Assembly: GCF_020171845.1 (NCBI RefSeq) | Contig: NZ_JAIVAM010000010.1 | Coordinates: 62,001 to 126,000 of the forward strand | Origin: Cytobacillus kochii | Lineage (GTDB): Bacteria; Bacillota; Bacilli; Bacillales; Cytobacillaceae | Direction of reading: 5' to 3' | DNA: 64,000 nucleotides | Shown here: positions 5,804 to 64,000 of the stretch, in pieces | Position numbering within the stretch: position 1 is the first letter of the stretch | Layout: the number at the start of each line of letters is the position of its first letter | Translations under genes and position numbers: made by a program | Notes under the pieces: generated by a model | The model's database searches: none | Told to the model about the DNA's origin: nothing | The model's input: only the letters and a program-made list of their open reading frames with translations

Positions 5804-5829
5804 AAAGCTCCCGTTTCACACGAGAGCTT
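5804..5829 (-). terminator. yugJ terminator
   Basis: Hairpin AAGCTCTCGT/ACGGGAGCTT with a GTGAA loop after the yugJ stop, followed on the minus strand by TTTCTTTA. Confidence 0.75.
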
Positions 5830-5834
5830 CATCC

Positions 5835-6998
5835 TTATAATGCTGAACGATAGATTGAAAGAACATCCTCTTTATCTAATACTTGAAAACGACCAAAAGG
5901 ACCATTATGAACGGCTTTATTTGCCATATCTTCTAGCTTGCTATCGTCTATACCATAATCTGATAATTGTTCGGGTGCATCAATACTGTTCCAAAAAAGT
6001 CTTAAACGAGCAATTCCTTCTAATGCGACTTCCTCATCTGTTTTGCCTGTTGGATCAACTTCAAACACTCTTATTGCTAATTGTTTCATTCTCTCAGGCT
6101 TGGCATGTAATGTATGCTTAATCCAATGAGGGAATAAAATGGCCAAACCGCCACCATGAGGGATATCATAGACTGCCGATACAGCATGTTCAATGTTATG
6201 AGTTGCCCAGTCTCCTTTATAACCCATATTGAGAATACCGTTTAATGCCATTGTACCGCTATATAAAATGGTCGCACGATGCTCATAATTTTCTAAGTCA
6301 TCTATTAGTTTTGGAGCTGTATCCATTATCGTAGTTAAGAGAGATTCGCACATACGATCTTGAAAGTCCGTATTTTCTTCTAAATGGAAATAATGCTCAA
6401 GTACATGAGACATCATATCGACTATGCCATAAATCGTTTGGTCTCTTGGCACTGAATATGTATGTTCTGGATCTAAAATTGAAAATTGAGGGAAAACAGC
6501 CGGGCTTCCCCAAGACAATTTTTCATGTGTTTCCCAATTGGTAATGACCGCTCCAGAATTCATTTCAGAACCCGTTGCAGCTAATGTAAGGACGGTACCA
6601 AAGGGAATCGCTTCTTCCATTCTTACTTTATTCGTCACCATATCCCAAGCATCACCAGCAAATTTCGTTGCTCCAGCAATGGCTTTTGTACAATCGATGA
6701 CACTCCCGCCACCAACAGCTAGAATGAAATCAATTTCTTTCTCGCGGCAAATATTCACACCTTCACGAACGGAAGAAACACGAGGATTTGGATCAACCCC
6801 ACCTAGTTCATACACTTCTGCATCCATTTTCTCAAGCTCATTCATTACCTTATCGTATAGACCATTCCTTTTAATACTTCCACCACCATAAACAACCAGC
6901 ACCTTACGGCCAAAAGGAGAAATCTCTTCGCTTAATTTACTAAGTTCACCTTTACCAAAAATCAATCTCGTTGGATTCCAAAATGTAAAATTCTCCAT
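5835..6998 (-). CDS. yugJ: Iron-containing alcohol dehydrogenase, YugJ/butanol dehydrogenase type
   Basis: A 387-aa group III alcohol dehydrogenase. It starts [19 protein letters not shown], has the nucleotide-binding [13 protein letters not shown] segment near residue 95, and the metal-site region ending in [20 protein letters not shown]. These match NADH-dependent butanol dehydrogenases (YugJ/YugK, BdhA). The ATG at 6998 has AAGGAAGG upstream; a GTG nine bases earlier lies within that ribosome site and is less likely. The enzyme probably reduces aldehydes with NAD(P)H in the cytoplasm; its physiological substrate is not visible from sequence. It stands alone, with its own terminator. Confidence 0.9.
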
Positions 6999-12471: not shown

Positions 12472-13215
12472 TTATTCGATGACTTGTATTTTCTCAATAA
12501 TCACGTCTTCTACTGGTTTATCGTTTTCATTTACTTCTACTTGTGCAATTTCATCAACAATATCCATCCCATCTATCACCTGTCCAAAAACAGTATGACG
12601 CCCATCTAGCCATGGCGTTCCACCATTTTCCACATATTTCTCAATAATGTCAGTTGGATATTCATTATCTTTCATTTGTTGTTCTAGGCCATCCCCTAAT
12701 GTTGTATTCTGAACAATGAAAAATTGACTACCATTTGTATCAGCACCTTTGTTAGCCATCGATAAGGCACCGCGAATATTAAATAATTGATTAGAGAACT
12801 CATCCTCAAAGTATTCCCCGTAAATACTTTCTCCACCAATTCCTGTGCCTTCAGGGTCTCCACCTTGGACCATAAACTCTTTCATAACACGATGAAAGAT
12901 AACGCCATCATAATAGCCTTCTTTACTATGAGTGATAAAGTTTTCTACTGTCTTAGGTGCAATATCGGGAAAAAGTTTAATCGTAATTTCGCCTAATGAT
13001 GTTACCATCTTAACGACCTGCTCATTTTCCCCTACTTCATTGGAAAGCTGTGGGAAACCTTTTACTTTAGCAGCTTCGCCTGTATCATCTTCTTGTGTTT
13101 TTTCCTCTGCTGTTGACTTGTCCCCTTTGTCTGCATCAGCTGTATCGTTATTCTCACCACAACCAGCAAGTAATAAAAGAAGCATTGCAAATAAAACCAA
13201 CCATTTTTTTCTCAT
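12472..13215 (-). CDS. Cyclophilin-type peptidyl-prolyl isomerase lipoprotein
   Basis: A 247-aa exported lipoprotein: lipobox LLAGC near residue 19, an acidic linker to about residue 60, then a cyclophilin domain with GEITIKLFPDIAPKTVENF, the active-site segment YDGVIFHRVMKEFMVQGGDP, MANKGADTNGSQFFI and DGRHTVFGQVIDGMDIV. The catalytic Arg (FHRV) and Gln (VQGGD) are present. It should speed prolyl isomerisation of proteins folding outside the membrane, as PrsA does with a different fold. It is divergent from kapB, with about 150 bp between. Confidence 0.93.
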   Translation of the reverse strand: MRKKWLVLFAMLLLLLAGCGENNDTADADKGDKSTAEEKTQEDDTGEAAKVKGFPQLSNEVGENEQVVKMVTSLGEITIKLFPDIAPKTVENFITHSKEGYYDGVIFHRVMKEFMVQGGDPEGTGIGGESIYGEYFEDEFSNQLFNIRGALSMANKGADTNGSQFFIVQNTTLGDGLEQQMKDNEYPTDIIEKYVENGGTPWLDGRHTVFGQVIDGMDIVDEIAQVEVNENDKPVEDVIIEKIQVIE

Positions 13216-13362
13216 TATCTCACTCCCAAGCGTATGTATTATACTACCATTATTTTAATATTGTACCGGTTTGTAAAGAGCCTATCTATCTGTTTTATGG
13301 ATTGTCTTTCATTTCTTTCTCATTCATAATATAGGCAAGATCAATTGTTAGGAGGTACATCA

Positions 13363-13743
13363 ATGAGTGAATTAAAGATTGGAGATAAAGTTACCGGGAT
13401 ATACAAAACAGGGAAATATATTGGAGAAATCACAGACATCCGTCCGCAAAGTTATTTGGTAAGGGTCTTAGCAGTGCTGAAGCATCCTACACAAGGTGAT
13501 CTTCATCACCCTAAAGAAGTAGACGGCGTTTTCTTTCAAGAAAGAAGAGCCTTGGCATATAGGGAACAAACGAATGTCCCTTTAAAAATGGTGAAACCTT
13601 TTACCGAAGAAATTCCCGACTATCAAGTTTCACTTCAAGATGCTATTGAAAAAATGCGTGCAGAATTACTTACCAAAAGCACGGAATGGGCAGAAAAAAG
13701 CTTAATGAACTTAAAATCATTAGAAAAAGACTATTTTAAATAA
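13363..13743 (+). CDS. kapB: Kinase-associated protein KapB
   Basis: The 126-aa protein matches the KapB family: a small SH3-like barrel (IGDKVTGIYKTGKYIGEITDI, YLVRVLAVLKHPTQGDLHHP) followed by a helical tail. In B. subtilis KapB is needed for KinB signalling into the sporulation phosphorelay. TTAGGAGGT lies six bases before the ATG at 13363; an in-frame TTG six codons earlier overlaps that ribosome site. The B. subtilis partner kinB normally lies just upstream, but here the upstream gene is a divergent cyclophilin. Confidence 0.88.
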   Translation: MSELKIGDKVTGIYKTGKYIGEITDIRPQSYLVRVLAVLKHPTQGDLHHPKEVDGVFFQERRALAYREQTNVPLKMVKPFTEEIPDYQVSLQDAIEKMRAELLTKSTEWAEKSLMNLKSLEKDYFK

Positions 13744-50756: not shown

Positions 50757-51746
50757 TTGACTGAACAGAAGATTTACGACATCACGATTATCGGCGGGGG
50801 TCCAACTGGGCTATTCACCGCTTTTTACGGTGGGATGAGACAAGCATCTGTTAACATTATTGAAAGCTTACCTCAACTAGGTGGACAGCTTTCTGCCCTT
50901 TATCCAGAAAAATATATCTACGATGTTGCAGGATTTCCGAAAATCCGCGCACAAGAGTTAATAGATAATCTTGTTGAACAGATGGACAAATTTGATCCGA
51001 CTATTTCTTTAGAACAATCTGTACAAACATTGGAAAAACTAGCAGATGGTACATTGAAAATTACGACAGATAAAGATGTCCACTTTTCAAAATCTGTCAT
51101 TATTACTGCTGGTAACGGCGCATTCCAACCCCGTCGTTTAGAATTGGAAAGTGCAAAAGAATACGAAGGAAAAAACCTTCATTATTTTATTAACGACCTC
51201 AATCATTTTGCCGGAAAAAGAGTCGTTATATTTGGTGGAGGCGATTCAGCAGTGGACTGGGCTTTAATGCTTGAACCTATCGCAGAAAAAGTTACAATCG
51301 TTCACCGCAGAGATAAATTCCGTGCACATGAACATAGTGTAGAAAACCTTGAAAACTCTAAAGTTGATATCAAAACACCATATATTCCAGCTGAATTAGT
51401 CGGTGATGAAAGCGGTGTAAGCCAAGTAATCCTTGAAAAAGTAGGCGAAGAAGAGAAAGAAGTTATCGATGTCGATGCAGTTATTGTTAACTATGGTTTT
51501 GTCTCTTCATTAGGTCCAATTAAAGAATGGGGCTTTGACATTCAAAAGAACTCTATCGTTGTAAACCAAAAAATGGAAACAAATATTGAAGGTGTTTATG
51601 CTGCTGGAGATATTTGTACTTACGATGGAAAAGTAAAATTAATTGCATGTGGGTTTGGTGAAGCACCAGTCGCAGTTAGTCACGCTAAAACATATATTGA
51701 CCCTAAAGCAAGAGTACAACCTAAACATAGTACTTCAATGTTTTAA
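50757..51746 (+). CDS. yumC: Ferredoxin/flavodoxin-NADP+ reductase, type 2 (YumC)
   Basis: A 329-aa thioredoxin reductase-like flavoprotein lacking the redox CxxC: FAD motif [23 protein letters not shown] motif [17 protein letters not shown] near residue 155, and [24 protein letters not shown] at about 280-305 (given here in part: [10 protein letters not shown]). It passes electrons between NADPH and ferredoxin or flavodoxin and is essential in B. subtilis. A TTG start follows TTAGGGGGA. It has its own terminator. Confidence 0.95.
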
Positions 51747-51751
51747 AAGAA

Positions 51752-51775
51752 GCCCGGATGATTCCGGGTTTTTTT
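51752..51775 (+). terminator. yumC terminator
   Basis: Hairpin AGCCCGG/CCGGGTT followed by a seven-T run. Confidence 0.9.
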
Positions 51776-51930
51776 ATACCATTAAACCGGAGGAAGTTTT
51801 GACCTTTTCCACATGCTAATACCCACCAATCACACTTCTTGTGGATTAAAAATTAACTTACTGACTTCAAATAATCATGCAAAGTAAAAAAAGACCTTCC
51901 CTTTATAAAGGAAAGATCTCTTCACTAAGA

Positions 51931-52023
51931 TTAGCACTCTTCTGGCGTACCAACCTTTGTTGCGGTTCTAAAAGAAGATCCACAGCCGCAATTGGCAATC
52001 GCATTTGGGTTGTCGATAGTGAA
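51931..52023 (-). pseudogene. 3' fragment of HesB/IscA-type Fe-S protein gene (yutM/sufA) at the prophage attachment site
   Basis: The minus strand reads FTIDNPNAIANCGCGSSF then RTATKVGTPEEC and a stop, the exact end of the A-type Fe-S carrier YutM/SufA, including the CGC cluster ligands. A stop codon lies directly before this piece and the upstream sequence is unrelated. In B. subtilis yutM follows yumC, so the gene is in place but cut. Phage genes start 300 bp further on. The simplest reading is that a prophage inserted into the 3' end of yutM; the 5' part, with a phage-supplied end, should lie beyond the far end of the prophage. Confidence 0.85.
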
Positions 52024-52320
52024 TTAGTCGGTCAGTTAGACGGTAGATTAAACGCGATAATATCAACGTTTGTTTCATTTTTGACGATTGTTATTGTTCG
52101 TTCGGATTAATAACACCGCTCATTCATAGCGATGGACTACGTTATCACCATCTTACCCAAACTTCGGGAATATGACAAGCATTAATCGGTAGTTAGGACA
52201 AAATTTATTCCATTCAAGGTTCCAGGTAACAAAAACAATCTCGCTCAGGAGATTCATTCGACAAAACTCGGCAGTTTGAGCATGACCGCGCGCGAGAGCT
52301 TTCGACTAACTTTCAAAAAA
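52024..52320. other. Prophage end, non-coding
   Basis: About 300 bp between the yutM piece and the first phage-end gene. It holds a probable terminator at 52231-52254 and no gene that I can support. Confidence 0.55.
52231..52254 (-). terminator. Terminator of the OLD-PLD pair
   Basis: Hairpin AATCTC/GAGATT followed by GTTTTTG on the minus strand, downstream of the PLD-like gene. Confidence 0.6.
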
Positions 52321-53163
52321 TTAAAGCAAATTTTTTAATTCTATAAATTTCTTTGCATAAGTTTCAGCAAGTTTACGATTACGTTTTATCTCCATAGATT
52401 CATGATTATATTGAGCTTTTTTAGTCCAATTATAAGAACCACTTATTACTATCTCCAGATCAATCACACAAAATTTATTGTGCATAATGTTTTTAAACAT
52501 CCCTTGTTCTGGGAAACGATATGTCTCAAAATGATCCTCAAAACGAAACCCGTATCTCCTATTAGTATCATCATCAATTACTATAACTTGTATATTTAAA
52601 CCCTCGGTCTTTTTTTTGATCAATTCATTAAATAAGATTTGGTCGGTAAACCACGCTACAGCAACCCAAATTGTAAATTTAGCTTTTTTTATTTCTTCAA
52701 TAATCTGATTTTGGATATCTTCAAAATATGCCTTAAGTTCGACTGGTTCTTCATAAGTGTCATAACCACTCACACAATATCCGTCTTTTATTTTTTCTAT
52801 GCTATAGCTATTGGATTTAATTATTTTATTCAGACTAGCAATAAATACTTCCTCTTCTGAACCTTCAATTGTATTTTGGTCTATTTGAATTAACGCGGCA
52901 TTAATAAATACTTCCATAAATTCTGTAAGCTTTTTAGAATTATTTATTTTTTTCAATCTATTAGCAACATACTCTTTCCTACTCTTTTTACCCCCATATA
53001 ATTCATTACCTACAAACCCCTTACTCATACTATACATATCTTCAAATCCAATAGATTCGAATAATTTCACTAACTGAGGACCGCTAAAGTAAAACAACCC
53101 GTCTCCTTTACCACACGCTATGAAATCTTTTAACTTATCCAGTGTATATACCTTTAAATTCAA
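52321..53163 (-). CDS. PLD-like nuclease-domain protein in the prophage-end accessory pair
   Basis: A 280-aa protein. The C-terminal half (residues about 145-280) is a single phospholipase D-like domain with the HKD motif HNKFCVIDLEIVISGSYN, as in dimeric PLD-family nucleases. The N-terminal 140 residues are helical, without a recognised family. The upstream gene, 61 bases away on the same strand, is an OLD-family ATPase. A TTG at 53163 follows a run of ten G and AG; the ATG at 53181 lies before the G run and lacks a ribosome site. Base composition is AT-rich compared with the phage tail genes. Probable nuclease effector (inference). Confidence 0.8.
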   Translation of the reverse strand: MNLKVYTLDKLKDFIACGKGDGLFYFSGPQLVKLFESIGFEDMYSMSKGFVGNELYGGKKSRKEYVANRLKKINNSKKLTEFMEVFINAALIQIDQNTIEGSEEEVFIASLNKIIKSNSYSIEKIKDGYCVSGYDTYEEPVELKAYFEDIQNQIIEEIKKAKFTIWVAVAWFTDQILFNELIKKKTEGLNIQVIVIDDDTNRRYGFRFEDHFETYRFPEQGMFKNIMHNKFCVIDLEIVISGSYNWTKKAQYNHESMEIKRNRKLAETYAKKFIELKNLL

Positions 53164-53224
53164 GTTTCTCCCCCCCCCCATTTCATATCAGTTATGTACG
53201 ACTCCTCAAAAAATTCATGTTATA

Positions 53225-54928
53225 TCAAGTGTTCCAACTGTCTATTACTTTTATCAGAGCGTTAATTTTATCCGATAAATCCAAATGATTGTTAAGATCA
53301 TTTTCGTTAAGCAAAGGTATAATTCCTCTCGCAAAAGCCACTTTACTCCTCTCATATTTTGTCCCTTCACCTTTTTTAATTAAATCCAAATAATCTTTTA
53401 TGTTCATATACCTAGTAAAGTCTTCTTTAACTTCCTTATTATAATAGTTATGTATAACCTTCTGAGGGATATAATTTTCTATTTCCTTTCCTTTTGTTAT
53501 CCAAACTAGAGAATCTGCCTCTTCAAATTCTTTTCTGATTCTCTTTTTTGTATCATTAATTTTACTTCCTTGAGACCTTTTATCACTATCAATAACAATT
53601 GCACAATTCCTATTAGCTAATAACAAATTTATTAACTCATTTTCCTCATCCGCTTCAGTAACTGAGTAATGCGAAAGCAACTTCCCCCCATAGTATACAA
53701 TTTGATATTGATTACCCTCAGTGAACTTTCCTTTTCCAAATACTTCTAACCATTTATTTATGTACATTCTATCAGTTGGCCCCTCAACCCAAATAATGCC
53801 GTTAGACTGTAGCAAATCGCTCGCTTTGATATCTAGATCCTTTAATATATTGTTACTATCTTTATAATCCAATGTAGTTTTTGGTATAATTTTGTTATCT
53901 ACGTTCCTTAAATGAATCAAGCTAGTATTCGGATTACCGCTAAACATGTTAATTGGTATATGGGAATGTGTTGTAAGGAAAATGGTTGTTCCGTGATTAA
54001 TTGCCCATTCATATATAAAGTTAAATAAATTTCTTTGAAGTAAAGGATGCAAGTTATTCTCCAATTCTTCTAATATGTAATAAATTTCTTTAGAATCTTT
54101 TTTATAAAGTATTGGTAATAAAAGAAGCTGTATTAGCACTAAGATAATTGTTTTTAAACCACTTCCTGATTTTGACAGAGATATTCTTCCTTTATGCTCC
54201 TCTTCTAAGAATATTTCCCACATATATAAATCCTTTTCATACTCAACTTGTTGGACAACAATGTCTGTAAATATTGCATCTGGATAAATAATTTCATTTA
54301 AATAATTTAATAGATCTCTTTCTACAATTTTACTATCTAAAGTACTAAGGTTAATAAATTTATTAACAATATTCGTTGCTCCTTCACCATTCATTAATAA
54401 ATCTTTTTGCTTGTCTTCTTCCTCAGGAACTATGTTACGTTCAGCTCCAAGTCTTAGAACTGTTATTGTTATTTTTCCTATAATATGATTCGCCAACTTA
54501 TCCCAGTGAGCCTTATGAGATACATCAAACTTCCCGTTTTTAAATTTAGTGAACTCTCCATTTACCGAAATTCTATTTGAGAAATCAGTTTTAGGGGTTA
54601 ATTTAAAGTGGAATATCTCCCCGATAAACCTCATTCCAAATTCTCTATGGTTTCCTCTAATGTCACCGCCCCCTATATTTAGATCAAAACAAGCTTCAAT
54701 CTCTTTATTAGTTAACTTATAACCAATAACTATTTCATTAAAATCTTTCTTATTTTTATTGAAGGTGTTCTTATTAGTTGCGTAAGATAAAATATCTAAT
54801 AAACTCGATTTTCCCGAATTATTTCTACCTATTAAAATATTGAAGGGCTTAATCTCTTCAATTCCTACAAAATCTCCTTCAATGAAGCATTTATACCCAT
54901 TTACATATATTGAGTGTAATTTAACCAT
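53225..54928 (-). CDS. OLD-family ATP-dependent endonuclease (ABC-type ATPase + TOPRIM)
   Basis: A 567-aa protein. N-terminal ABC-type ATPase: Walker A GRNNSGKS at 34-41, signature-like SLSKSGSGLKTII, Walker B YYILEELENNLHP, and LTTHSHIPINMF. The C-terminal TOPRIM part has IIWVEGPTDRMYINKW and AIVIDSDKR, giving the Glu and DxD metal residues. This is the architecture of OLD nucleases such as GajA or P2 OLD, which act in phage exclusion. There is no UvrD-like helicase next to it; the partner is a PLD-like protein. AAGGAGGGG precedes the ATG, and a probable own promoter suggests expression in the lysogen. Confidence 0.9.
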   Translation of the reverse strand: MVKLHSIYVNGYKCFIEGDFVGIEEIKPFNILIGRNNSGKSSLLDILSYATNKNTFNKNKKDFNEIVIGYKLTNKEIEACFDLNIGGGDIRGNHREFGMRFIGEIFHFKLTPKTDFSNRISVNGEFTKFKNGKFDVSHKAHWDKLANHIIGKITITVLRLGAERNIVPEEEDKQKDLLMNGEGATNIVNKFINLSTLDSKIVERDLLNYLNEIIYPDAIFTDIVVQQVEYEKDLYMWEIFLEEEHKGRISLSKSGSGLKTIILVLIQLLLLPILYKKDSKEIYYILEELENNLHPLLQRNLFNFIYEWAINHGTTIFLTTHSHIPINMFSGNPNTSLIHLRNVDNKIIPKTTLDYKDSNNILKDLDIKASDLLQSNGIIWVEGPTDRMYINKWLEVFGKGKFTEGNQYQIVYYGGKLLSHYSVTEADEENELINLLLANRNCAIVIDSDKRSQGSKINDTKKRIRKEFEEADSLVWITKGKEIENYIPQKVIHNYYNKEVKEDFTRYMNIKDYLDLIKKGEGTKYERSKVAFARGIIPLLNENDLNNHLDLSDKINALIKVIDSWNT

Positions 54929-54948
54929 TCTACCCCTCCTTTTGCATA

Positions 54949-54957
54949 ATTATACCA
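54949..54957 (-). promoter_or_regulatory. Extended -10 promoter element before the OLD gene
   Basis: TGGTATAAT on the minus strand, 20 bases upstream of the OLD start codon, with no good -35. The leader would be very short. Tentative. Confidence 0.4.
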
Positions 54958-55025
54958 TATATATAGTAAAAGATGACTAATTCTATCAAGACTTAGGAGT
55001 TTCGTATATAAAAGATTGATCCCCA

Positions 55026-55046
55026 ACCGTTTAGGTCAGGGCGTTT
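55026..55046 (-). terminator. Possible terminator of the phage lysis genes
   Basis: Stem CCCTGACC/GGTTGGGG (two G:U pairs) ten bases after the holin gene; the T-run is weak. Confidence 0.5.
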
Positions 55047-55055
55047 TATTTTCGT

Positions 55056-55265
55056 CTATTCTTCTCGCGCTTTCTTCGTCACGTCGTTATTTTTCCAGTA
55101 GCTCCAAAGCGCAGTCCCGCCGAGGAATGCAAGCGAAATAAACTCGCTCACGCCCGCTTCGTCGACCGGAATCACGCTTAAGCCCGCCATTTCTAAGCCC
55201 GCGTTAATTAGCGCCAAAAGTAAAAGCACGAATCTGCTGACCGTGCCTGCCGAAATTCTATTCAT
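55056..55265 (-). CDS. Phage holin, XhlB/SPP1 type
   Basis: A 69-aa protein with two hydrophobic segments (residues about 10-30 and 40-55) and a charged tail WKNNDVTKKAREE, matching the XhlB/SPP1 holin family. It would form membrane lesions that let the amidase reach the wall. Its start overlaps the amidase stop by one base. Confidence 0.87.
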   Translation of the reverse strand: MNRISAGTVSRFVLLLLALINAGLEMAGLSVIPVDEAGVSEFISLAFLGGTALWSYWKNNDVTKKAREE

Positions 55266-56068
55266 TATTTAGCCTCCTTCGCAATATAAGGCGCATAGCC
55301 CGCTTTCTTCGCTTTCGCCGCCAAGTCGTCCGCATTATCTTTCTTGCTGAACGCGCCGAGCTGTACTTTATATAGCGCGCCATCCTTCGATGCAAACGCG
55401 TCAAATCCTTTAGCCTTCGCTTGCTTGACGAGAGCATCCGCATTAGCCTTCTTACTAAACGCGCCAATTTGAACCTTGAATAAGCTGCCTTTGCTTGGCG
55501 CTGGCTTCGGCTTGCTTGCCGTCTGTTTCTTCGCTAGCTTGAAAGCCTTCGCGATGCCTGCTGCATGCCCCTGCGCAACTGCTTCGATAAATGACGCTTG
55601 CTTTAGCTTTGCCGCGTCCGCTGCTTTATCGATGAACAAGGATTCCGTTAATACTGCCGGCATGCGTGATTCGCGTAGAACGTGATAGTTAGCGCGCTTC
55701 TTGCCTCGGTCGCGAACGCCATCAATTCGTTTCATAATTTCGCTATGAATGGCGTCCTGAAACTTCTGCGTACCCGCGCCAACTGTCGTATAGACGTAGT
55801 CCTCGTAGCCCGTGCCACCGCCTGCGTTAATATGAACGGAGACAAATAAGTCTGCGCCCCAAGCGTTCGCCGCGTCCGTCCGTTGCTTAAGCGACAGTGA
55901 TTGGTCGCCCGTTCTGCTGTACTTAATAGTCGCGCCTTTATAATCGTTCGCGAGAATAGCACCGACACGCTTAGCGATTGTCAGCGTCAAGTCCTTTTCG
56001 CGCAAGCCATTGCCGACCGCTCCTGGATCGTTACCGCCATGTCCTGCGTCAATAAATACTTTTACCAT
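55265..56068 (-). CDS. N-acetylmuramoyl-L-alanine amidase (Amidase_3) with two SPOR repeats
   Basis: A 267-aa endolysin. Residues 1-175 form the zinc amidase_3 domain: VFIDAGHGGNDPGAVG (zinc His), SVHINAGGGTGYEDYVY (zinc His), and VLTESLFIDKAADA (catalytic Glu). Two C-terminal SPOR repeats follow (LFKVQIGAFSKKANADALV and LYKVQLGAFSKKDNADDLA), which bind denuded glycan. No signal peptide, so release depends on the holin. GC-rich codon use is like the other phage lysis genes. Confidence 0.94.
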   Translation of the reverse strand: MVKVFIDAGHGGNDPGAVGNGLREKDLTLTIAKRVGAILANDYKGATIKYSRTGDQSLSLKQRTDAANAWGADLFVSVHINAGGGTGYEDYVYTTVGAGTQKFQDAIHSEIMKRIDGVRDRGKKRANYHVLRESRMPAVLTESLFIDKAADAAKLKQASFIEAVAQGHAAGIAKAFKLAKKQTASKPKPAPSKGSLFKVQIGAFSKKANADALVKQAKAKGFDAFASKDGALYKVQLGAFSKKDNADDLAAKAKKAGYAPYIAKEAK

Positions 56069-56090
56069 ATTACCGCTTCCCTTCGTTATT

Positions 56091-56378
56091 TTATTTGATT
56101 AGCGCAATGAATACCGTTATTAAAAGTCCCGCGACCGTCAGCAACGTTCCCCATACCCACTTCGTGTTCGCCTTCATGTCGCGAATGTCATCGCGAACCT
56201 CTTCCGCCAGTTTAATCGCGAAGTCCGCCTTATCTTCTGCTGAGTCGGCTTTCTCGTCCGCTCTTTCCGCAAGACGTTTGATATCGTTTAAGTTATCCAT
56301 CTTCGTATCAATCCGCACGAGCCATTCGCGTATGTCTGCGATTTTCTCGTTAAGCTCGTGTCCGCTCGGTTCCGCCAT
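56091..56378 (-). CDS. XhlA-type phage protein
   Basis: A 95-aa protein with an N-terminal coiled coil (ELNEKIADIREWLVRIDTK and onward to about residue 70) and a single C-terminal membrane helix (WVWGTLLTVAGLLITVFIAL). This matches XhlA/haemolysin-type lysis-associated proteins of PBSX-like phages. The ATG at 56378 is downstream of AAAGGAGGTG. It is the first gene of the XhlA-amidase-XhlB lysis set. Confidence 0.87.
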   Translation of the reverse strand: MAEPSGHELNEKIADIREWLVRIDTKMDNLNDIKRLAERADEKADSAEDKADFAIKLAEEVRDDIRDMKANTKWVWGTLLTVAGLLITVFIALIK

Positions 56379-56406
56379 ATTGCGTTTCACCTCCTTTAAG
56401 GCACGC

Positions 56407-56450
56407 GAAAAAGACGCCCGATGATGGGCGCCTAATGCTGCGCAGTTTGT
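56407..56450 (-). repeat. 44-bp duplicated terminator element, copy 1
   Basis: Identical over 44 bases to 61503-61546. On the minus strand it contains the hairpin GGCGCCCATCATCGGGCGTC followed by TTTTTC. It lies after the deacetylase gene and before xhlA. Confidence 0.9.
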
Positions 56451-56499
56451 TCCTACTGTTCAGCTGTAGAACCGTAAAATTTCATTTTCTTAATAAAAT

Positions 56500-57300
56500 C
56501 TAATATTGATTCCCTAATGTGAACTTCAGCGCATCTCTAGTACATACAGGTAAAATCTTTTCTCTTCCTTGAGTATTGATGTATTGCAAAATCTCTTCCA
56601 ACAACGAAGGGGTGATTTCGTACAAACCGTCCTTCTTTGGATCAATACCATGCAACATAATGACACACCACTGTCTATTCTCAATAGCCTCATCAATCTT
56701 TTCTTTAACATCTGAGAATGTGGTCGTATTCGTTACGGCTATTGCTGAATTAATCCAGTACCTGTCATTTGGGGGAGTATTATTCTGAGCGTTTCCATGT
56801 ACTCTTATACCCTTATAATACTGCATTCCGATGCTTCTTACCCTGTCATCATATTTAGAGAATTGAACCGCATAAGTTTCTGGACTTCCTATGCACCACA
56901 TACTCAAAACCTTCTTAGTCTCACCAAATTCAAAGTGTACTTCTTCATCAGTTTTATCAATTAAACCAATGTCGTGATAGTAGGAATGTGCAGCAATCTC
57001 CACCCCTCTTCTTTCTGCATCTTTCACCTTAAACGGATTGAAAAAATCTTTGTGAAATGACTTTATAATCACTCTCTGCCCAATAATATTAAAAGTTGCT
57101 GGAATACTGTATTTCTCATGAATAGGAAGCGCCAATTCATAGTTATCATTTAGACCATCATCGTAACTCAAGGTAACCATAGCCTGACCATTATAATCTT
57201 CAAACTTAGGGTTACTAATCATTATTGGAAAAGCACTTTCTACTTTGACTTCCTTAGCTTGGTTAATTGACTTTGCTGGTTTTACACTACTCAACACCAT
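56500..57300 (-). CDS. Phage-borne polysaccharide deacetylase (NodB-type)
   Basis: A 266-aa protein with the NodB core: MVTLSYDDGLNDNYELALPI (catalytic/metal Asp pair in YDDG) and EIAAHSYYHDIG (metal His pair), with a final VIMLHGIDP motif. It should remove acetyl groups from a surface polysaccharide, plausibly as a tail-associated enzyme during host contact. There is no signal peptide. It is AT-rich compared with neighbouring lysis genes, and it ends against the duplicated 44-bp terminator, suggesting an exchangeable cassette. GAGGGAT precedes the ATG. Confidence 0.85.
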   Translation of the reverse strand: MVLSSVKPAKSINQAKEVKVESAFPIMISNPKFEDYNGQAMVTLSYDDGLNDNYELALPIHEKYSIPATFNIIGQRVIIKSFHKDFFNPFKVKDAERRGVEIAAHSYYHDIGLIDKTDEEVHFEFGETKKVLSMWCIGSPETYAVQFSKYDDRVRSIGMQYYKGIRVHGNAQNNTPPNDRYWINSAIAVTNTTTFSDVKEKIDEAIENRQWCVIMLHGIDPKKDGLYEITPSLLEEILQYINTQGREKILPVCTRDALKFTLGNQY

Positions 57301-57313
57301 AATTTATCCCTCA

Positions 57314-57865
57314 TCACAAAAGTTTGTTAATTCGAATGGAATAAGTTTGCTCTGCCGAAGAAGTGTTAGATAAGAAAAATTTATATCTCGGTGCTTTAAC
57401 TCTGAATACTCCACTCAACGCTCTACTTCTTACAGCCTCTGCAAAGATAGTATCCCTATCACTTGTTGATGCATCATAGTGATCAGAATTTCCATCTAAT
57501 TTTTGTGCATTTATTCTATATTGATGACTATTAGCAGTGATGACGCCCATAGTAAATTCTTTTGCATCTGTTAAGTCTATGGAAGAACCTTCCGTTAATG
57601 TTAATTGCGCAGAACCTCCAGCCGGGACAGTAATGTTTTCAAATACGAGCTCTTTAAGGGATTTGCTTTTAACTGGTATTGCTTCTTCATCAGTTAGTGA
57701 ATTAAATTGCAAATCTACCGCTTGTGCCACTGGATTTCCGTTTTCATCTTTTGCAACAGTACTTCCCGTCAGTTTCACACCAAGATTACCATCGTTATCT
57801 GTTTTTAAAGCTTTGGCAGTTCCGTCATCCCCACGACCAGCCATCCTTATCATTTCGTTTGCCAT
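57314..57865 (-). CDS. Phage tail/baseplate accessory protein, 183 aa
   Basis: Unnamed phage structural protein. It begins MANEMIRMAGRGDDGTAKAL, a pattern seen at the start of proteins next to BppU, and has a beta-rich C-terminal half. GGGAGG lies before the ATG at 57865; the longer open frame upstream overlaps BppU and is not used. It starts two bases after the BppU stop, so the genes are coupled. Confidence 0.75.
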   Translation of the reverse strand: MANEMIRMAGRGDDGTAKALKTDNDGNLGVKLTGSTVAKDENGNPVAQAVDLQFNSLTDEEAIPVKSKSLKELVFENITVPAGGSAQLTLTEGSSIDLTDAKEFTMGVITANSHQYRINAQKLDGNSDHYDASTSDRDTIFAEAVRSRALSGVFRVKAPRYKFFLSNTSSAEQTYSIRINKLL

Positions 57866-57866
57866 T

Positions 57867-58697
57867 TTACACAACCTCCCAAGGTTCATTTTGTGTTGTC
57901 GTTGCCTTAAACCATTGCGTACTTTGGAATACTCCACCAGAAGTCCAGACAGTCTCATTCCAGAAGTACCAATTTCCATCGTCGACAACAATAAATACAC
58001 CGTTTTTACCTGTAGGTAGTGCTGTTTGTAGGGCTGTTAATGTGTCATATACTCCGTTTACTTTTAATTCTCCAATGCTGGACACTTGTTGCTCAAAATC
58101 TGCCAACTGTGCGGTAAGCCGACTGTCAACATCATTAACTTTATTATCTAGTACACTGACATCAGTACCCTCTAAACGGTCCGCCTCCGTCTTAGCGCGG
58201 TCCCCTTGCGCCTTTGCATAATCCGCCTGTACTTCCGCCTCTACCGCAGCATCCTCCGCTTGCCCAACGGTCGCCCTAAAGCCGTCAACCTCCGCGACAA
58301 TTTCATCTTTGAACTCTTCGATTTGTGATACGCGCATAACGATGCGCTCTTCTACTTCGCCCACCTTGCTCACGTCTAAGCTCGGCGCAACCGTAACCGC
58401 TAAGTAGCCTTCGCTTGGAAATACTTTGCGACTGCCGTCCGGCCATTCAACGTGAAATTCCGCGTTAAACGTGCCGGCTTCGAGCGTCGCTATTTCCGTC
58501 AATTCGTACGCGAGCTTGCCCGCCATTTCATCGACTACTTGCGCCGGCTCGTTAATAATTACGGAATCAGTGTCGCCTCGCTTGCCCATTAAAAAGCGCG
58601 CCGTAGCTCCGATTAAGTTGACCGGTTGCTTGTGCGCGTCGAGTGCCGTATATCTAATTGCGTCATGTGAATCCGTTGTTTTCCATCTTATCGCCAA
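57867..58697 (-). CDS. BppU-family baseplate upper protein
   Basis: A 276-aa protein with an N-terminal BppU-like domain (RWKTTDSHDAIRYTALDAHK, then GKRGDTDSVIIN and AGTFNAEFHVEWPDG), a coiled coil at about residues 105-210, and a C-terminal receptor-side part. It links the baseplate to receptor-binding modules. The first two thirds are GC-rich and the last third AT-rich, a sign of C-terminal exchange. Confidence 0.85.
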   Translation of the reverse strand: MAIRWKTTDSHDAIRYTALDAHKQPVNLIGATARFLMGKRGDTDSVIINEPAQVVDEMAGKLAYELTEIATLEAGTFNAEFHVEWPDGSRKVFPSEGYLAVTVAPSLDVSKVGEVEERIVMRVSQIEEFKDEIVAEVDGFRATVGQAEDAAVEAEVQADYAKAQGDRAKTEADRLEGTDVSVLDNKVNDVDSRLTAQLADFEQQVSSIGELKVNGVYDTLTALQTALPTGKNGVFIVVDDGNWYFWNETVWTSGGVFQSTQWFKATTTQNEPWEVV

Positions 58698-58718
58698 TTA
58701 TATCGCCTCCTATTTTTA

Positions 58719-58748
58719 CGCATGAAAAAAGACGCCTTAGTTGGCGCC
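58719..58748 (-). repeat. 30-bp duplicated terminator, copy 1
   Basis: Identical to 58950-58979. It contains GGCGCCAACTAAGGCGTC and TTTTTT on the minus strand and overlaps the last codons of the 66-aa gene. Confidence 0.88.
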
Positions 58749-58937
58749 TTCATCAATACCCTCATTTGAAATGATAGTAATACCCTTTATCTCTATACGC
58801 GAAAATATATTACGACCAATTAAGATCGTATTTACTTCGGAATCATTTAATTGTTGATTAATAATATTTTCGTCATAAGCATCGGTTTCAAACTCGTATT
58901 CTCCGAGACTATAAGTTGAGACTTTTAACTGAACCAT
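58737..58937 (-). CDS. Hypothetical phage protein, 66 aa
   Basis: Unrecognised acidic protein in the tail module. Its last residues EGAN and stop are part of a 30-bp element shared with the lipoprotein gene upstream. A GGGGGATT ribosome site precedes the ATG. It probably lies between exchange points. Confidence 0.6.
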   Translation of the reverse strand: MVQLKVSTYSLGEYEFETDAYDENIINQQLNDSEVNTILIGRNIFSRIEIKGITIISNEGIDEGAN

Positions 58938-58949
58938 AGAATCCCCCTT

Positions 58950-58979
58950 CGCATGAAAAAAGACGCCTTAGTTGGCGCC
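58950..58979 (-). repeat. 30-bp duplicated terminator, copy 2
   Basis: Second copy of the 30-bp element; overlaps the last codons of the lipoprotein gene, which also ends in EGAN. Confidence 0.88.
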
Positions 58980-59429
58980 CTCTCTTAATACTTTTGCATG
59001 TTCCATTAATCTATTGGCTTCATCGTAATTTTCATTCATAACATTAACGCCAACGTTCATTATTGTCTTTAGATACTCGTCTAGATCAGTATGATTAGGC
59101 TGTAATTCAGCGCCGAATACGTGTAAATACTTGCCCCAATCCGACGTTAGTTCACCAGAGTCGTAGAGTCGAAAAAATTCATTCTCTAAAGCAACCGCAT
59201 TATCCAGTGTAAATACTTCCTTACCGTCGTTTACTAAATCATAAATCTCCTGCGTATCGTACTTTTCCCACGGCAATTTCTCGTCCTTAACTTCTGCGGC
59301 AGCTACATCGGCAGTTACTTCGACTGTTTCCTTATCGCTTTTAGCTTCTTCTTTCACTTCTTCAGTTGATTCATTTGCGCAAGCAGTTAACAATAAAAGT
59401 AGTACCAGCGTAGTTAGTTTCCGCATCAT
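58968..59429 (-). CDS. Prophage-encoded lipoprotein, 153 aa
   Basis: A lipoprotein with lipobox LTAC near residue 17, an acidic linker (STEEVKEEAKSDKETVE) and a helical C-terminal domain. It is inserted between tail genes and ends at the duplicated 30-bp terminator. Phage lipoproteins in such places often block superinfection, as Ltp of Streptococcus phage TP-J34 does; that role is inference here. AAAGGTGATGG precedes a double ATG. Confidence 0.75.
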   Translation of the reverse strand: MMRKLTTLVLLLLLTACANESTEEVKEEAKSDKETVEVTADVAAAEVKDEKLPWEKYDTQEIYDLVNDGKEVFTLDNAVALENEFFRLYDSGELTSDWGKYLHVFGAELQPNHTDLDEYLKTIMNVGVNVMNENYDEANRLMEHAKVLREGAN

Positions 59430-59476
59430 CCATCACCTTTTTATTTTAATCCTAGCATATTCTACCTATTATTTCA

Positions 59477-61441
59477 CTAATAATTTCCACCTCCGCGTGA
59501 TTGAATAAAGAACTGAGTTGTTATTTGTGCAGTTATGCGACCTAGGCTATTAGGCGTAATCTCAATAGTATGCCAACCTCGATTTACCTTGCCGCTTGAA
59601 TCCGTTCCAAGATGGGGAATTAAGTCGATATTCTGTCCGCTAGTTGATGTATGCTGAACTGTATTGCCGTCAACTTTAATCGTTACGCGAGAAGGTGTAC
59701 TGTTTAGCTTGTAAATTCCGTGCTGTATTTCATGCGTATGATTAGGGAGCGTGAAGTCGTGCGTATGATCCGGAATTGTTACGCTATGCGTATGGTTTGG
59801 AATACTGACGTCATGACGGTGGTTAGGAACGTTAAAATCATGTGTGTGAGACGGTATCGAGACGTTGTGTGTGTGGGAGGGAACTGAAACATCATGCGAG
59901 TGATTAAACCTCTCCCCCGGTATCTGCACCTCATGCATATGGTTTCCATAGTTCTCCGAACCTATAGCGTTTTGCGGAACACCACTCACTAAGTTAAGTT
60001 GCGCAAAGTTTCGCGTACTAGTTGTTGTCTGCGTTCCTCCGCCAGAGCTTGACGTTTGTGAGCTACCACCGCCACTTGCCGTCGATGTACTTACTCCACC
60101 ACCGCTCGTGCTTGTCGCAGTTGTCCCCCCACCGCTCGAACTCGTGGCCGTTGTCCCTCCGCCACCTTTCGTAGTCGTTGACGTAGCGCCTCCGCCTTCA
60201 GTAGCTTTTCCATACGTCCTAAATTCCGATGTTTCAAAAGTCAATTCAAGCTTATTCACACGTACCATTTCCTCCGGCAAGTAAAACCGTATGGTAGCCG
60301 GATTATTTGGATCCGCGTTGTCATTATAATCATGTGAGTCTATATTCGTTGCTCCTTGCGCGTAAACTTCGTTAATCTCTTGACGGCGCTCTAAGTCCGC
60401 TTGCGTCGTGCCGAGATTCTCCGTCTTGTTTGCGATTTCTAGCTGAATGTCTCCAGGGCTTCCGACCATGTCCGGCTTGCTCTCGCCGACGATTCGCGCT
60501 TCAAAAGTGCCGAGGTCCGGATCGACTATGCGTACTATACGACCAACGCGTAGCTTATCGACATCCATGCCCGTCAAGCTCGACAAGTCTACGGCGCTAA
60601 TCCGATAGCTAACTTTCGGCACGCTCCGCTCATCAAGCAACGCCTGGGCTGATGCTTTTAACGAGTCAATATCCTCGAATCGACGGTCAACCCAAACGTA
60701 AGGAATCAGTCCATATTTCGCGATAGATGCTGCGTTCTCCAAGTAAGGACGTCCGTTGTTAGCTTCGCGAATAGTAAGTTGATTGACGCCCTCGCCGTAG
60801 CCTTTCGGATAAATACGATTGAGTATGCCCGTCGGATCAATGTCGCGCTGTATCTCGCGCTGATTTTTGCCGAAACGTACTTCGCAAGTTGTCGCGTTAG
60901 AAGGTCGCACGAGATTGAGCGTCCAAGGATAAGACGTAGTATCCCACGTCCATTCGTACTGTTCGTCGAAAGGTTGCGCAATAGAAAAAAGAGGACCGAG
61001 CAATCCGTTCTCGTCCTCCCATTTATAATGAAAATATCGCGTAAAGTCGCAGCGTCCAAGGCGCCAATGCTTCGTCGTCTGTCGCGCAAGTATATATTCG
61101 ATATTTTGCTTCGTCGTCCAATTTATCGTCTGATGATACTCGAATAGCACGTCGTCCAAGAGTGTCGCGATAACGTGGTCGCATTCGTACTTGATGGAGT
61201 AATTCGACTCTGACTTCGTGGTCTGCGACGGCACAATACGAAAAAGACCGATATACTCGCCGGTTAGGTCGTCGATTATCTCGACATAGTTTAACGGCTG
61301 GCATTCGGCATTCTTCGGATCATCTAACGGTAAAATAAAAGAAGCGCCCCAAATTTCGTTGAGACGCTTCTTGTACGATACGCTATATGCATTTTCGAGT
61401 ATTGCGATAGGTTGGCGCGAACGATTCAGTATTTTAATCGT
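59477..61441 (-). CDS. Phage tail endopeptidase/tail-spike base protein with His-rich repeats; non-canonical start
   Basis: About 654 aa. Residues 1-290 match the prophage endopeptidase tail family (Tal): IKILNRSRQPIAILENAYSV, LNEIWGASFILPLDD and VEIIDDLTGEYIGLFRIVP. The frame has no ATG, GTG or TTG before an internal GTG at 61234, although clearly homologous sequence continues to 61441. There an ACG follows GGAGG by eight bases, so the start looks like an ATG changed to ACG. A Gly/Ser/Thr-rich linker lies at about 60010-60200, and HTH-containing 11-residue repeats (SIPSHTHDF, SIPNHTHSV) at about 59735-59940. The C-terminus is beta-rich. Confidence 0.82.
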   Translation of the reverse strand, partial: TIKILNRSRQPIAILENAYSVSYKKRLNEIWGASFILPLDDPKNAECQPLNYVEIIDDLTGEYIGLFRIVPSQTTKSESNYSIKYECDHVIATLLDDVLFEYHQTINWTTKQNIEYILARQTTKHWRLGRCDFTRYFHYKWEDENGLLGPLFSIAQPFDEQYEWTWDTTSYPWTLNLVRPSNATTCEVRFGKNQREIQRDIDPTGILNRIYPKGYGEGVNQLTIREANNGRPYLENAASIAKYGLIPYVWVDRRFEDIDSLKASAQALLDERSVPKVSYRISAVDLSSLTGMDVDKLRVGRIVRIVDPDLGTFEARIVGESKPDMVGSPGDIQLEIANKTENLGTTQADLERRQEINEVYAQGATNIDSHDYNDNADPNNPATIRFYLPEEMVRVNKLELTFETSEFRTYGKATEGGGATSTTTKGGGGTTATSSSGGGTTATSTSGGGVSTSTASGGGSSQTSSSGGGTQTTTSTRNFAQLNLVSGVPQNAIGSENYGNHMHEVQIPGERFNHSHDVSVPSHTHNVSIPSHTHDFNVPNHRHDVSIPNHTHSVTIPDHTHDFTLPNHTHEIQHGIYKLNSTPSRVTIKVDGNTVQHTSTSGQNIDLIPHLGTDSSGKVNRGWHTIEITPNSLGRITAQITTQFFIQSRGGGNY

Positions 61442-61502
61442 GGCGAACGCCTCCTTTTAACTTCGTATTTAGTCCGCGAATATAATCGTTCTTTAATTCA
61501 TA

Positions 61503-61546
61503 GAAAAAGACGCCCGATGATGGGCGCCTAATGCTGCGCAGTTTGT
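61503..61546 (-). repeat. 44-bp duplicated terminator element, copy 2
   Basis: Second copy of the element at 56407-56450, identical over 44 bases. It lies after the 47-aa gene and before the tail endopeptidase gene. Confidence 0.9.
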
Positions 61547-61553
61547 GAAAATT

Positions 61554-61697
61554 CTATTCAATCTCTAAATATACTCTAGTATCTTTCTCTATAATAGTTA
61601 TCTCATTGTCCGAAACACAACCAGCTTCGCAAGAAATGAATACTTCTGCATTTTGATCTAATAATTGTAATTGGTTAATAAGCTCTCTAATGGTCAA
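61554..61697 (-). CDS. Small protein, 47 aa
   Basis: A short frame reading MTIRELINQLQLLDQNAEVF, then ISCEAGCVSDNEITII and an acidic end. The first part resembles the 'KELIEKLQxLDPDAEV' proteins common in phages and mobile DNA. A TTG start follows AGGAGGTGAT. It starts 28 bases after the HEPN-like gene on the same strand and may be its partner. Function unknown. Confidence 0.68.
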   Translation of the reverse strand: MTIRELINQLQLLDQNAEVFISCEAGCVSDNEITIIEKDTRVYLEIE

Positions 61698-61724
61698 AAG
61701 TTATCACCTCCTGCGAGTTATTAA

Positions 61725-62213
61725 TTAACCATAAACTGGAACACCAACTATGAATGGCTCTAGCCCATTAGGGTACCTTCTAAATGAATGTTGGTGGTTA
61801 TTCCTGAAAGTATTATCATCTTTAATATGTTCTAACCATGTACAAGCAGCGTTTATTATTTCTTGACAAAAGATCTCTATATCTATATTTAAAACATTGT
61901 CTATTATATTATTATGCATTACCACCCTTGGATTAGGCTCAATAAATATAACTCTGTCATATCGAGAATTTTTATGTCTTGTGCTTCCTTGATGCAAGAA
62001 TGAACACCTGAAGTAATAACAGTCGTCCGCTGTCATAGAAATTTTGTCACCAACATACTCACTGTACCAGTCCTTGTATTTCCTTCCACTTGTTTGACCA
62101 TCTTCTGATTGTAAAGCTGCACAAATATCAGGAATGCATAAAGCCATTCCTAAAGATAAATGATAAACTTTTGCATTTAAACCTCTTTCAATTTCATTAA
62201 ATAAATCTTCCAT
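61725..62213 (-). CDS. HEPN-like accessory protein, 162 aa
   Basis: An AT-rich gene between tail genes. The helical protein contains MTADDCYYFRCSFLHQG, in which RCSFLH fits the Rx4H motif of HEPN ribonucleases, followed by STRHKNSRYDRVIFIEPNP. HEPN proteins commonly act as toxins or in abortive infection. The identification rests on this motif and the helical look only. AAGAAGGGGG precedes the ATG. It lies upstream of a 47-aa gene and the duplicated 44-bp terminator. Confidence 0.65.
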   Translation of the reverse strand: MEDLFNEIERGLNAKVYHLSLGMALCIPDICAALQSEDGQTSGRKYKDWYSEYVGDKISMTADDCYYFRCSFLHQGSTRHKNSRYDRVIFIEPNPRVVMHNNIIDNVLNIDIEIFCQEIINAACTWLEHIKDDNTFRNNHQHSFRRYPNGLEPFIVGVPVYG

Positions 62214-62339
62214 ATAAAATACCCCCTTCTTTTGTCACGTTCATTCGACAAAAAAAGAGGATATCCTTCTTTTATTATTATATATAAAGTAGTGGTGATA
62301 CATTATATACTGTAAAAAGAATTGATGGAATATATCTTG

Positions 62340-64000
62340 TTATAATTGACTCACTTGCAATGAACCACTATTATCGACACTAGCTTTATATTTAGTTCCA
62401 TTAGGCGAAACAAAAGAAAACCCAACGTATCCACTCACGCTAGGTATAGAAACTGCACCAGTTAATCCTGATACATCATTATTTCCTATTTGAATATTTT
62501 CGCACGTACTTGTTACTTGAATGCCATACATATTCGCGATTGCAGGAATGATGTTTTCTGCAATTTTTATACTTTTACTACTACTTCCTATAAAAATCCC
62601 ACTTCGCTCGTTAAGACTTTCTGTACTTGATGCTCCTATTAGATTGGATTGTATTACTCCTCCAACAACCCCTTCATAGTTAATACCAGCACGACCTGTT
62701 TCTTTTACCGTATTATTCACTACGGAAAGGTTATTAACTAATTGCGCATAAATCATTTCAAGTTGCATTATCCCACAAGTATTTGAATCAAAATTTACAT
62801 TTAATGAGTTCCTAACCCAAAGAGCACGGGTTGAGTTATAGAATTTATTACCCTTAATATCTATTGAATCGGTATAATTTAAATATATAATTCCGCCAGA
62901 GACATTCAAATCCTTTAGCGTATTATCAACTATTTTTACATTTTCAGTGTAAACTCCCGACACGCCATTGATTGAAATATGAGCTACATCGCCAATAGTT
63001 CCCTCGATTATATTCCCTCGTATAATAACCGTACTGCTCTCTTGTGATACTCCCATTTGAACACCATTTATATTCTTAGTGAATTCACTATTCGGTGAGG
63101 GAATCGAAACGTTTATCGATCCGAAGCAGTTGCGGAAAGTGTTACTTTCTACAAATACGTTTTTAAACTTGAAAATCCGTAACGCCCTAAACGGACACTC
63201 TTCGAACGTATTATTAACAACCGTAATATCAGACGGCCATATATCATGCACCGCCATATGTTGCCCCACGCCGACCGGCCAGCTCGTCGTATTCTCCGTC
63301 CCACTCGGACCGAAATAGCAATTGCGTACAGTTACGTTATTTGTCGCAGTACCATCCGGCGCACCAAACGCAGGAAAGCTTCCAGTAGTTGCGATATCAA
63401 TCTGAATAGCCTCCGCATAGTTACGACTCTGATCTGCTCTATCGCGATAGCCAATAAATTTACAATTGTCGACTAGTACGTCTTTAACGCCTGCTAAATC
63501 AAGTGCATGCCCCGCGTATAAATCTTTGAAAGTCACATCGCGTAGAATGATATTTTGCGCATGCGAAACGCTAAAGCCGCTACACTCGAAGTTATAATCG
63601 ATTAAATTCCCGTCAAATACGCCGCCCTCTATGACGATGTTTCCATTTCCTTCGTATCCATAAAACGTTGCGCCATTGCGCCCGTTCTGAAGAATTGACG
63701 CGTTGTGCGACCGTTTGATTACCGCGTTCGGCGACATACGAATATGCGTATTACCATGAACGATTAGTTTTGCCGTCACTTTATAAATCCCCGCCGGCAC
63801 ATATACGCTAACCTGACCGTGCGTTTCTGCGATATCTAGAACAGCCTGTATCGCTGCCGTATCGTCGTTAGTATAATCGCCCACAGCTCCGTAACTTTTC
63901 ACGTTAATAAAATGCTCCAGTTCGTCTACGCGTGTCTTTAAGTTCGGCGCTACATTTCCATACGTACCTGTTCGCGCCTGCAACGTTTCAGCATCGCTCG
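62340..64000 (-). CDS. Phage tail spike, pectate-lyase-like beta-helix (partial)
   Basis: The frame is open past the right window edge, where it reads SDAETLQARTGTYGNVAPNL, a common lead-in of phage minor structural proteins, so the N-terminus is missing. Next is INVKSYGAVGDYTNDDTAAI and VYVPAGIYKVT, the pectate-lyase_3 beta-helix start, then many short right-handed parallel beta-helix coils (for example NNTFEECPFRALRI, SNTFRNCFGSI, GNIIEGTIGD). It is probably the receptor-binding or polysaccharide-degrading spike. The first third is more GC-rich than the AT-rich C-terminal two thirds, which suggests exchange of the receptor-binding part. Confidence 0.88.
   Translation of the reverse strand, partial: SDAETLQARTGTYGNVAPNLKTRVDELEHFINVKSYGAVGDYTNDDTAAIQAVLDIAETHGQVSVYVPAGIYKVTAKLIVHGNTHIRMSPNAVIKRSHNASILQNGRNGATFYGYEGNGNIVIEGGVFDGNLIDYNFECSGFSVSHAQNIILRDVTFKDLYAGHALDLAGVKDVLVDNCKFIGYRDRADQSRNYAEAIQIDIATTGSFPAFGAPDGTATNNVTVRNCYFGPSGTENTTSWPVGVGQHMAVHDIWPSDITVVNNTFEECPFRALRIFKFKNVFVESNTFRNCFGSINVSIPSPNSEFTKNINGVQMGVSQESSTVIIRGNIIEGTIGDVAHISINGVSGVYTENVKIVDNTLKDLNVSGGIIYLNYTDSIDIKGNKFYNSTRALWVRNSLNVNFDSNTCGIMQLEMIYAQLVNNLSVVNNTVKETGRAGINYEGVVGGVIQSNLIGASSTESLNERSGIFIGSSSKSIKIAENIIPAIANMYGIQVTSTCENIQIGNNDVSGLTGAVSIPSVSGYVGFSFVSPNGTKYKASVDNSGSLQVSQL

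Follow-up and report, generated by a model that had tools for sequence, protein, structure and literature searches.

An OLD-family nuclease gene and a PLD nuclease gene side by side at a prophage end in Cytobacillus kochii: probably two independent defence genes

Two adjacent genes close a prophage in a 64,000-nucleotide stretch of Cytobacillus kochii DNA (RefSeq assembly GCF_020171845.1, contig NZ_JAIVAM010000010.1, positions 62,001 to 126,000; hereafter the window). One encodes an OLD-family ATPase with a TOPRIM nuclease domain, and the other encodes a phospholipase D-like (PLD) protein. Both genes are genuine, intact, and in a fitting position, and they probably serve in defence. With a probability of roughly three in four, we read them as two independent single-gene modules of the abortive-infection type that lie side by side in a cargo slot of a temperate phage. 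Their pairing most likely came about through the shuffling of phage cargo and not through inheritance of a conserved two-component system; within the reach of our searches, the two genes do not form one. We favour independence because linkage is missing in both directions in the loci seen, the PLD gene has a leader of its own, and two elements at the same attachment site lack both genes in the stretches read. In addition, several relatives of the OLD gene stand without a partner, and the N-terminal domain of the PLD protein occurs on Abi_C and kinase proteins as well. The genes and the junction between them are as follows (aa, amino acids; nt, nucleotides).

52321 to 53163, minus strand: PLD gene, 280 aa, from a probable TTG start; AbiJ-NTD-like domain, then a single-HKD PLD domain of the Nuc/NucT type
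53164 to 53224, minus strand: PLD leader, 61 nt, with a ten-G tract at 53170 to 53179; common to PLD relatives without an adjacent OLD gene
53225 to 54928, minus strand: OLD-family ABC ATPase-TOPRIM gene, 567 aa

Linkage and the junction between the genes

An earlier note, made from the sequence of the window, had suggested that the two genes form a two-component module and had named conserved linkage as its own check. When that check was run, it was negative from both sides. Searches with the PLD protein returned 11 loci from genome contigs, 1 locus from IMG/VR, and 22 plasmid records, one of which matched over at least 80% of the PLD length. A family search matched 16 of 193 genomes, the genome of origin included, most of which match in the PLD domain alone; a search of 398 genomes of the class yielded no additional full-length relative. 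None of the nine distinct full-length relatives (L020, L051, L047, L062, L052, L053, L049, L054, and L056, with L051 and L047 nearly identical to each other) has an adjacent OLD gene. The partial relatives L055 and L057 to L061, which were excluded from the nine, have no OLD match.

From the other side, OLD searches returned 67 loci from IMG/VR, 10 plasmid records, and 1 phage, together with 29 of 193 genomes in the family (E of 1e-3) and 5 of 397 in the order (E of 1e-20), the genome of origin included in both counts. In IMG/VR, scans with the single OLD and PLD proteins found no relative, and the relatives came from alignment queries. Across 98 other loci with an OLD relative, no open reading frame (ORF) of at least 60 aa gave a match to the PLD or N-terminal profile or to the HKD pattern, in a screen that used hidden Markov models from alignment A3 and one HKD pattern and could miss a very different PLD. 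The same screen did match the window's own PLD protein. The 98 loci are mostly distant OLD relatives, some with short or cut flanks; three places are counted twice (L024 to L026 lie within L043 to L045), and several IMG/VR contigs are near-identical. Downstream of the OLD ORF, at least 1 kb is visible in 76 of them and at least 3 kb in 60. For the six best full-length relatives the visible downstream sequence is 4.9 to 5.0 kb (L073 to L075), 1.0 kb (L168), and 0.3 kb (L071 and L072).

The neighbours of OLD relatives are varied. Integrase or recombinase genes, and no partner, stand beside the OLD genes of L072, L073, L168, and L084, the first three next to an integrase gene. A HEPN-like gene, below the cut-off, lies downstream in L074 and an exonuclease gene in L075, and, among the more distant loci, another ATPase gene lies beside the OLD gene of L063. 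Among unnamed genes, L045 holds an OLD-like gene of 634 aa (4658 to 6562), whose 341-aa neighbour, perhaps PLD-like by eye, has no Pfam match at 0.01.

The junction itself records a boundary. In L020, L051, and L047, the sequence ahead of the PLD gene is homologous to the 61 nt that separate the OLD stop codon from TTG 53163 in the window; identity is 60 to 68% over this stretch and 17 to 41% before the stop codon. For each of the three relatives, none of 500 shuffles and none of 500 random 61-mers from the same locus reached the leader's global alignment score. The end of the OLD gene has no such homology, as its score was reached by 228, 355, and 359 of 500 shuffles. Since the homology of the leader ends at the OLD stop codon, the PLD gene must have brought this leader with it, and gene and leader form a separate unit that was joined right behind that codon.

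Several observations weigh against two independent modules. Both ORFs lie where the earlier note had placed them, on the same strand with 61 nt between the genes, so that co-transcription is possible. In two of the nine full-length PLD relatives, a Gabija-looking OLD-helicase pair lies 3.4 to 5.8 kb away: in L020 it is 3.4 kb off on the opposite strand, as annotated, and in L047 it is 5.8 kb downstream, with the helicase named by eye and a weak OLD match 3.5 kb upstream. Moreover, in L071 and L072, which hold the closest relatives of OLD among the viral contigs, just 335 and 281 bases are visible downstream of the gene. Shared strand and short spacing, together with the membership of both genes in defence-type families with a predicted nuclease each, as the earlier note had pointed out, would suit a new two-component system built on cooperation between the OLD ATPase-nuclease and the PLD nuclease, for example with OLD as the sensor and PLD as a second nuclease. 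Yet the loci seen contain no linkage in either direction and the PLD gene has a separate leader, on which grounds this candidate was rejected, and relatives of each gene occur without the other. We give such a joint system only a slim chance.

The OLD protein and its class

The Pfam matches of the OLD protein to AAA_15 (5e-18) and AAA_21 (3e-16) are above the cut-off, and that to OLD-like_TOPRIM (PF20469; 0.008) is under it. The earlier note had credited the protein with a full set of ATPase and TOPRIM motifs, and these are in place: a Walker A motif, GRNNSGKS, at residues 34 to 41, Walker B glutamates at 287 and 288, and the TOPRIM acids E382, D447, and D449. Residues K40, E287, E288, E382, D447, and D449 are invariant in all 10 aligned sequences. 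An N-terminal ABC ATPase with Walker A and B followed by a C-terminal TOPRIM domain with intact catalytic acids is what the Class 1 OLD proteins have, among them P2 Old, Thermus scotoductus OLD (TsOLD), and Escherichia coli YbjD/OldB. Class 1 proteins also have a helical dimerisation insert; in our single-chain model, helices at 136 to 152, 184 to 193, and 200 to 214 lie within the ATPase. At 567 aa the protein compares with 528 for the solved TsOLD chain and 575 to 675 for GajA chains, in a family where Class 2 proteins exceed those of Class 1 by about 50 aa on average.

Gene context points to Class 1. The neighbours of OLD are the PLD gene and a holin, with no UvrD-type helicase or retron, as expected of a Class 1 single gene, and like P2 Old it is borne by a prophage. 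Its relatives L064, L066, L071 to L073, and L168 also lack an adjacent helicase. It differs from the known Class 1 proteins in being only distantly similar to them and in being followed by a PLD gene. Overall, the protein fits Class 1, of the P2 Old type, by gene context, while by sequence scores Class 1 cannot be told apart from GajA and PtuA. It is for this reason that we hold our confidence in two independent modules to the level given above.

The scores and some neighbourhoods pull the other way. PADLOC ranks its AriA (9e-22) and GajA (2e-20) models over its Old model (5e-10). A PDB profile comparison puts TsOLD first by a narrow margin, with PtuA, Eco8 OLD, and GajA trailing by no more than about two orders of magnitude. 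A second structural comparison is led by PtuA and SMC chains and has no OLD chain among the best 50 matches listed. The Foldseek matches of the model have overall TM-scores near 0.3, with a root-mean-square deviation of about 20 A for GajA and TsOLD, and thus support the domains and not the whole arrangement. Finally, two distant relatives do have helicase-type neighbours, a UvrD-like gene (by eye) in L043 and a DUF3427 gene in L067. The PADLOC ranking and the close profile scores against solved OLD, PtuA, and GajA sequences could be taken to mean that the protein descends from Gabija (Class 2) or PARIS and has lost its usual partner. However, neither a helicase nor a DUF4435 partner lies beside OLD and several close relatives also lack them, and we regard this as very unlikely indeed. 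As named systems, Gabija was rejected because no UvrD/PcrA/Rep-like helicase adjoins OLD, its neighbours being PLD and holin, and PARIS because there is no AriB: the OLD and PLD proteins have no DUF4435 match and the other neighbour is a holin.

If OLD is a single-gene module, its action may resemble that of proteins described before. Class 1 OLDs are single genes and P2 Old acts against lambda (PMC10568477, PMC7049728), though few single-gene members have a known phage phenotype (PMC10568477, PMC13261556). Phage phenotypes are reported for E. coli YbjD, for which the TOPRIM domain was not needed, and P2 Old is cited as cutting host tRNA once RecBC is inhibited (PMC13261556). Phage proteins that antagonise RecBCD have been proposed to sensitise phages to Gabija (PMC12407980). 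By likeness to these reports on P2 Old with RecBC and on Gabija with RecBCD, an ATP-binding OLD dimer would sense an event linked to infection, perhaps interference with the repair of host DNA ends, and its TOPRIM domain would then cut nucleic acid and stop the infected cell.

Two further OLD-like sequences were noted. Elsewhere in the same genome (G000:C1, about 13204 to 13707), an OLD-like gene is followed by a helicase-like gene named by eye (667 to 2589 and 2586 to 3503 in L002), and this pair is likely a Gabija system. A genome of the same order carries a 209-aa OLD C-terminal fragment that is 52% identical to the OLD of the window (L172, 1607 to 2236).

The PLD protein and its N-terminal domain

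The PLD ORF spans 52321 to 53181 and encodes 286 aa from ATG 53181 or 280 aa from TTG 53163. The ORF stands as the earlier note gave it, but the start probably has to be moved: a Bacillus subtilis plasmid relative, 76% identical (L020), has its annotated start at position 8019, where a TTG lines up with TTG 53163, and several distant relatives, for example L062 and L052, start with ATG at that position. TTG 53163 is therefore probably the true start. Ahead of it, a run of ten G (53170 to 53179) stands where L020, L051, and L047 have five; with the TTG as start, this tract would fall in the ribosome-binding site of the PLD gene. Such a tract may make PLD translation vary between cells. It also figures in a more speculative idea, that of a fresh operon fusion in which OLD and a self-contained AbiJ-NTD-like PLD share one promoter and protect in layers, with PLD as a backup nuclease against phages that block OLD and the tract varying PLD output from cell to cell; we think this quite improbable.

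As the earlier note had it, the protein has one HKD motif. The match to PLDc_2 is at 1e-21, and a single complete HxK(x)4D(x)6GSxN motif runs from H234 to N251, which with the PLD fold places the domain among Nuc-type nucleases. Proteins of this type act as nucleases through paired HKD subunits. The protein differs from the single-HKD nucleases Nuc, NucT, and Zucchini by an extra N-terminal domain. Its relatives include one on a plasmid and one in a viral contig.

That N-terminus, which the earlier note had left unrecognised, becomes recognisable through its relatives. It is a domain of about 120 to 140 aa, largely helical in a moderate model of the protein (predicted local distance difference test 77, predicted template modelling score 0.48). 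A profile built on it matches the same domain fronting Abi_C (2e-21) in an Acinetobacter plasmid (L021, 3200 to 4045) and in L141 (1108 to 1950), and fronting a protein kinase domain (Pkinase, 4e-24) in L144 (946 to 1881). Abi_C would itself be HEPN-like, which is our own reading of its R-x6-H motif. A domain common to PLD, Abi_C, and kinase proteins of distant bacteria suggests a sensor that can be coupled to different effectors. In the account of Anantharaman et al. (2013; PMC3710099), AbiJ-NTD1 measures about 140 aa, is helical for the most part, and occurs in fusion with HEPN families, HKD phosphoesterases, and kinases; the AbiJ-NTD1-HKD fusions in Table 2 of that paper likewise set a helical domain of about 120 to 140 aa before the HKD. 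One N-terminal domain fused to HKD and kinase effectors, and also to Abi_C, is the architecture found here. Our results thus agree with an AbiJ-NTD-like N-terminus, its likeness to AbiJ-NTD1 being one of architecture.

Profile and structure searches add little to this assignment. Pfam AbiJ_NTD3 (PF18860) is matched by 4 of 12 members of the N-terminal family, at best at 3e-6; the three whole-protein scores seen, 14.9 to 25.4 bits, all fall short of the cut-off of 32.5. RP854 is a competing weak match in 2 of the 12, at best at 0.001. The N-terminus of the window's PLD protein has no Pfam match, AbiJ_NTD3 included, no NTD1 model appears among the matches of the Pfam scan, and 200 genomes of the class that were searched gave no hit to AbiJ_NTD3. 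No solved structure matches the domain in sequence below an E of 0.1, and nearly all fold-search matches listed for the protein lie on the PLD domain.

Alternatively, the PLD protein could be a plain phage nuclease, with OLD alone serving as a defence gene. We consider this unlikely, since Abi_C and kinase domains carry the same N-terminal fusion, and PMC3710099 interprets such an architecture as defensive. The same source proposes that AbiJ-NTD-type domains interact with phage components and may keep a toxic effector in check. By analogy, the PLD protein would combine sensor and effector: its AbiJ-like domain would detect a phage component or restrain the nuclease, and release would let two single-HKD subunits pair as a nuclease that kills or stalls the cell.

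Both OLD and PLD belong to known kinds, and the pair itself is in no named system that we found, in keeping with what the earlier note had said. In the literature matched by OLD nuclease, phospholipase D, and anti-phage, as far as those sources were available, no OLD-PLD pair is described and an OLD ATPase is named in Pgl operons; the term AbiJ-NTD1 led to PMC3710099 alone. Our findings add an OLD of the single-gene type carried by a prophage and a PLD protein with an AbiJ-NTD-like domain, both of which are readily testable in a Bacillus laboratory strain.

The prophage and its attachment site

The two genes are the last of the prophage before its attachment site, between the lysis genes and one end, which bears out the earlier placement as cargo beside that site and after the holin. 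The neighbouring features are as follows.

51932 to 52023, no strand: attachment-site repeat, 92 bp; identical copy at 92663 to 92754
52024 to 52164, no strand: terminal prophage sequence, conserved (92% and 85% identity) in two elements that occupy this site in the same genus
55056 to 55265, minus strand: holin (phrog_263, 1e-26)
55265 to 56068, minus strand: endolysin (phrog_435, 8e-64)

The 92-bp repeat is an exact direct repeat, its far copy being given in contig coordinates continued beyond the window, and it bounds a prophage of about 40.8 kb. It forms the 3' end of the gene at 92662 to 93027, which we take to be of the HesB/ErpA type. An integrase (phrog_1, 9e-49) adjoins the far copy; on the near side, the holin, the endolysin, and a second holin match lie next to OLD. 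The guanine-plus-cytosine content of the OLD and PLD cargo, 29 to 33% against 33 to 37% in the host flank, makes the cargo resemble the host; in the prophage from 54500 to 64000 it is 33 to 51% and exceeds 39% in 14 of 18 intervals. An Rfam scan of 51000 to 57000 gave no match, and a count of 15 promoter-like sites against 14.3 expected is uninformative.

Two genomes of the same genus, G063 and G040, have integrases 95% and 92% identical to that of the prophage. The attachment repeat is present twice in each of them and in G167. About 140 bp beside the repeat are conserved in the G063 and G040 elements (92% and 85%), beyond which the sequences diverge. We read 16 and 19 kb from these two genomes, entering the G040 element from one end only, and these stretches contain neither the OLD nor the PLD gene; both genomes are also absent from those matching the PLD or OLD protein in the family searches. 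Prophage hotspots of anti-phage genes in P2/P4, Vibrio, and Bacillus likewise carry variable defence-type cargo, often more than one system, according to PMC9122126; the Bacillus hotspot described there is near the integrase, whereas the slot in the window lies towards the lysis genes. The present case illustrates how shuffled cargo can produce a convincing pair of genes.

Other elements occupy the same site. G063 (L205) holds one of 14 kb, in which the repeat is soon followed by lipoprotein-like and tail-like genes, and this element may be a decayed prophage. G167 (L207) holds a third, different element; those of L205 and L207 are 14 to 16 kb long, share the attachment site, and encode related integrases.
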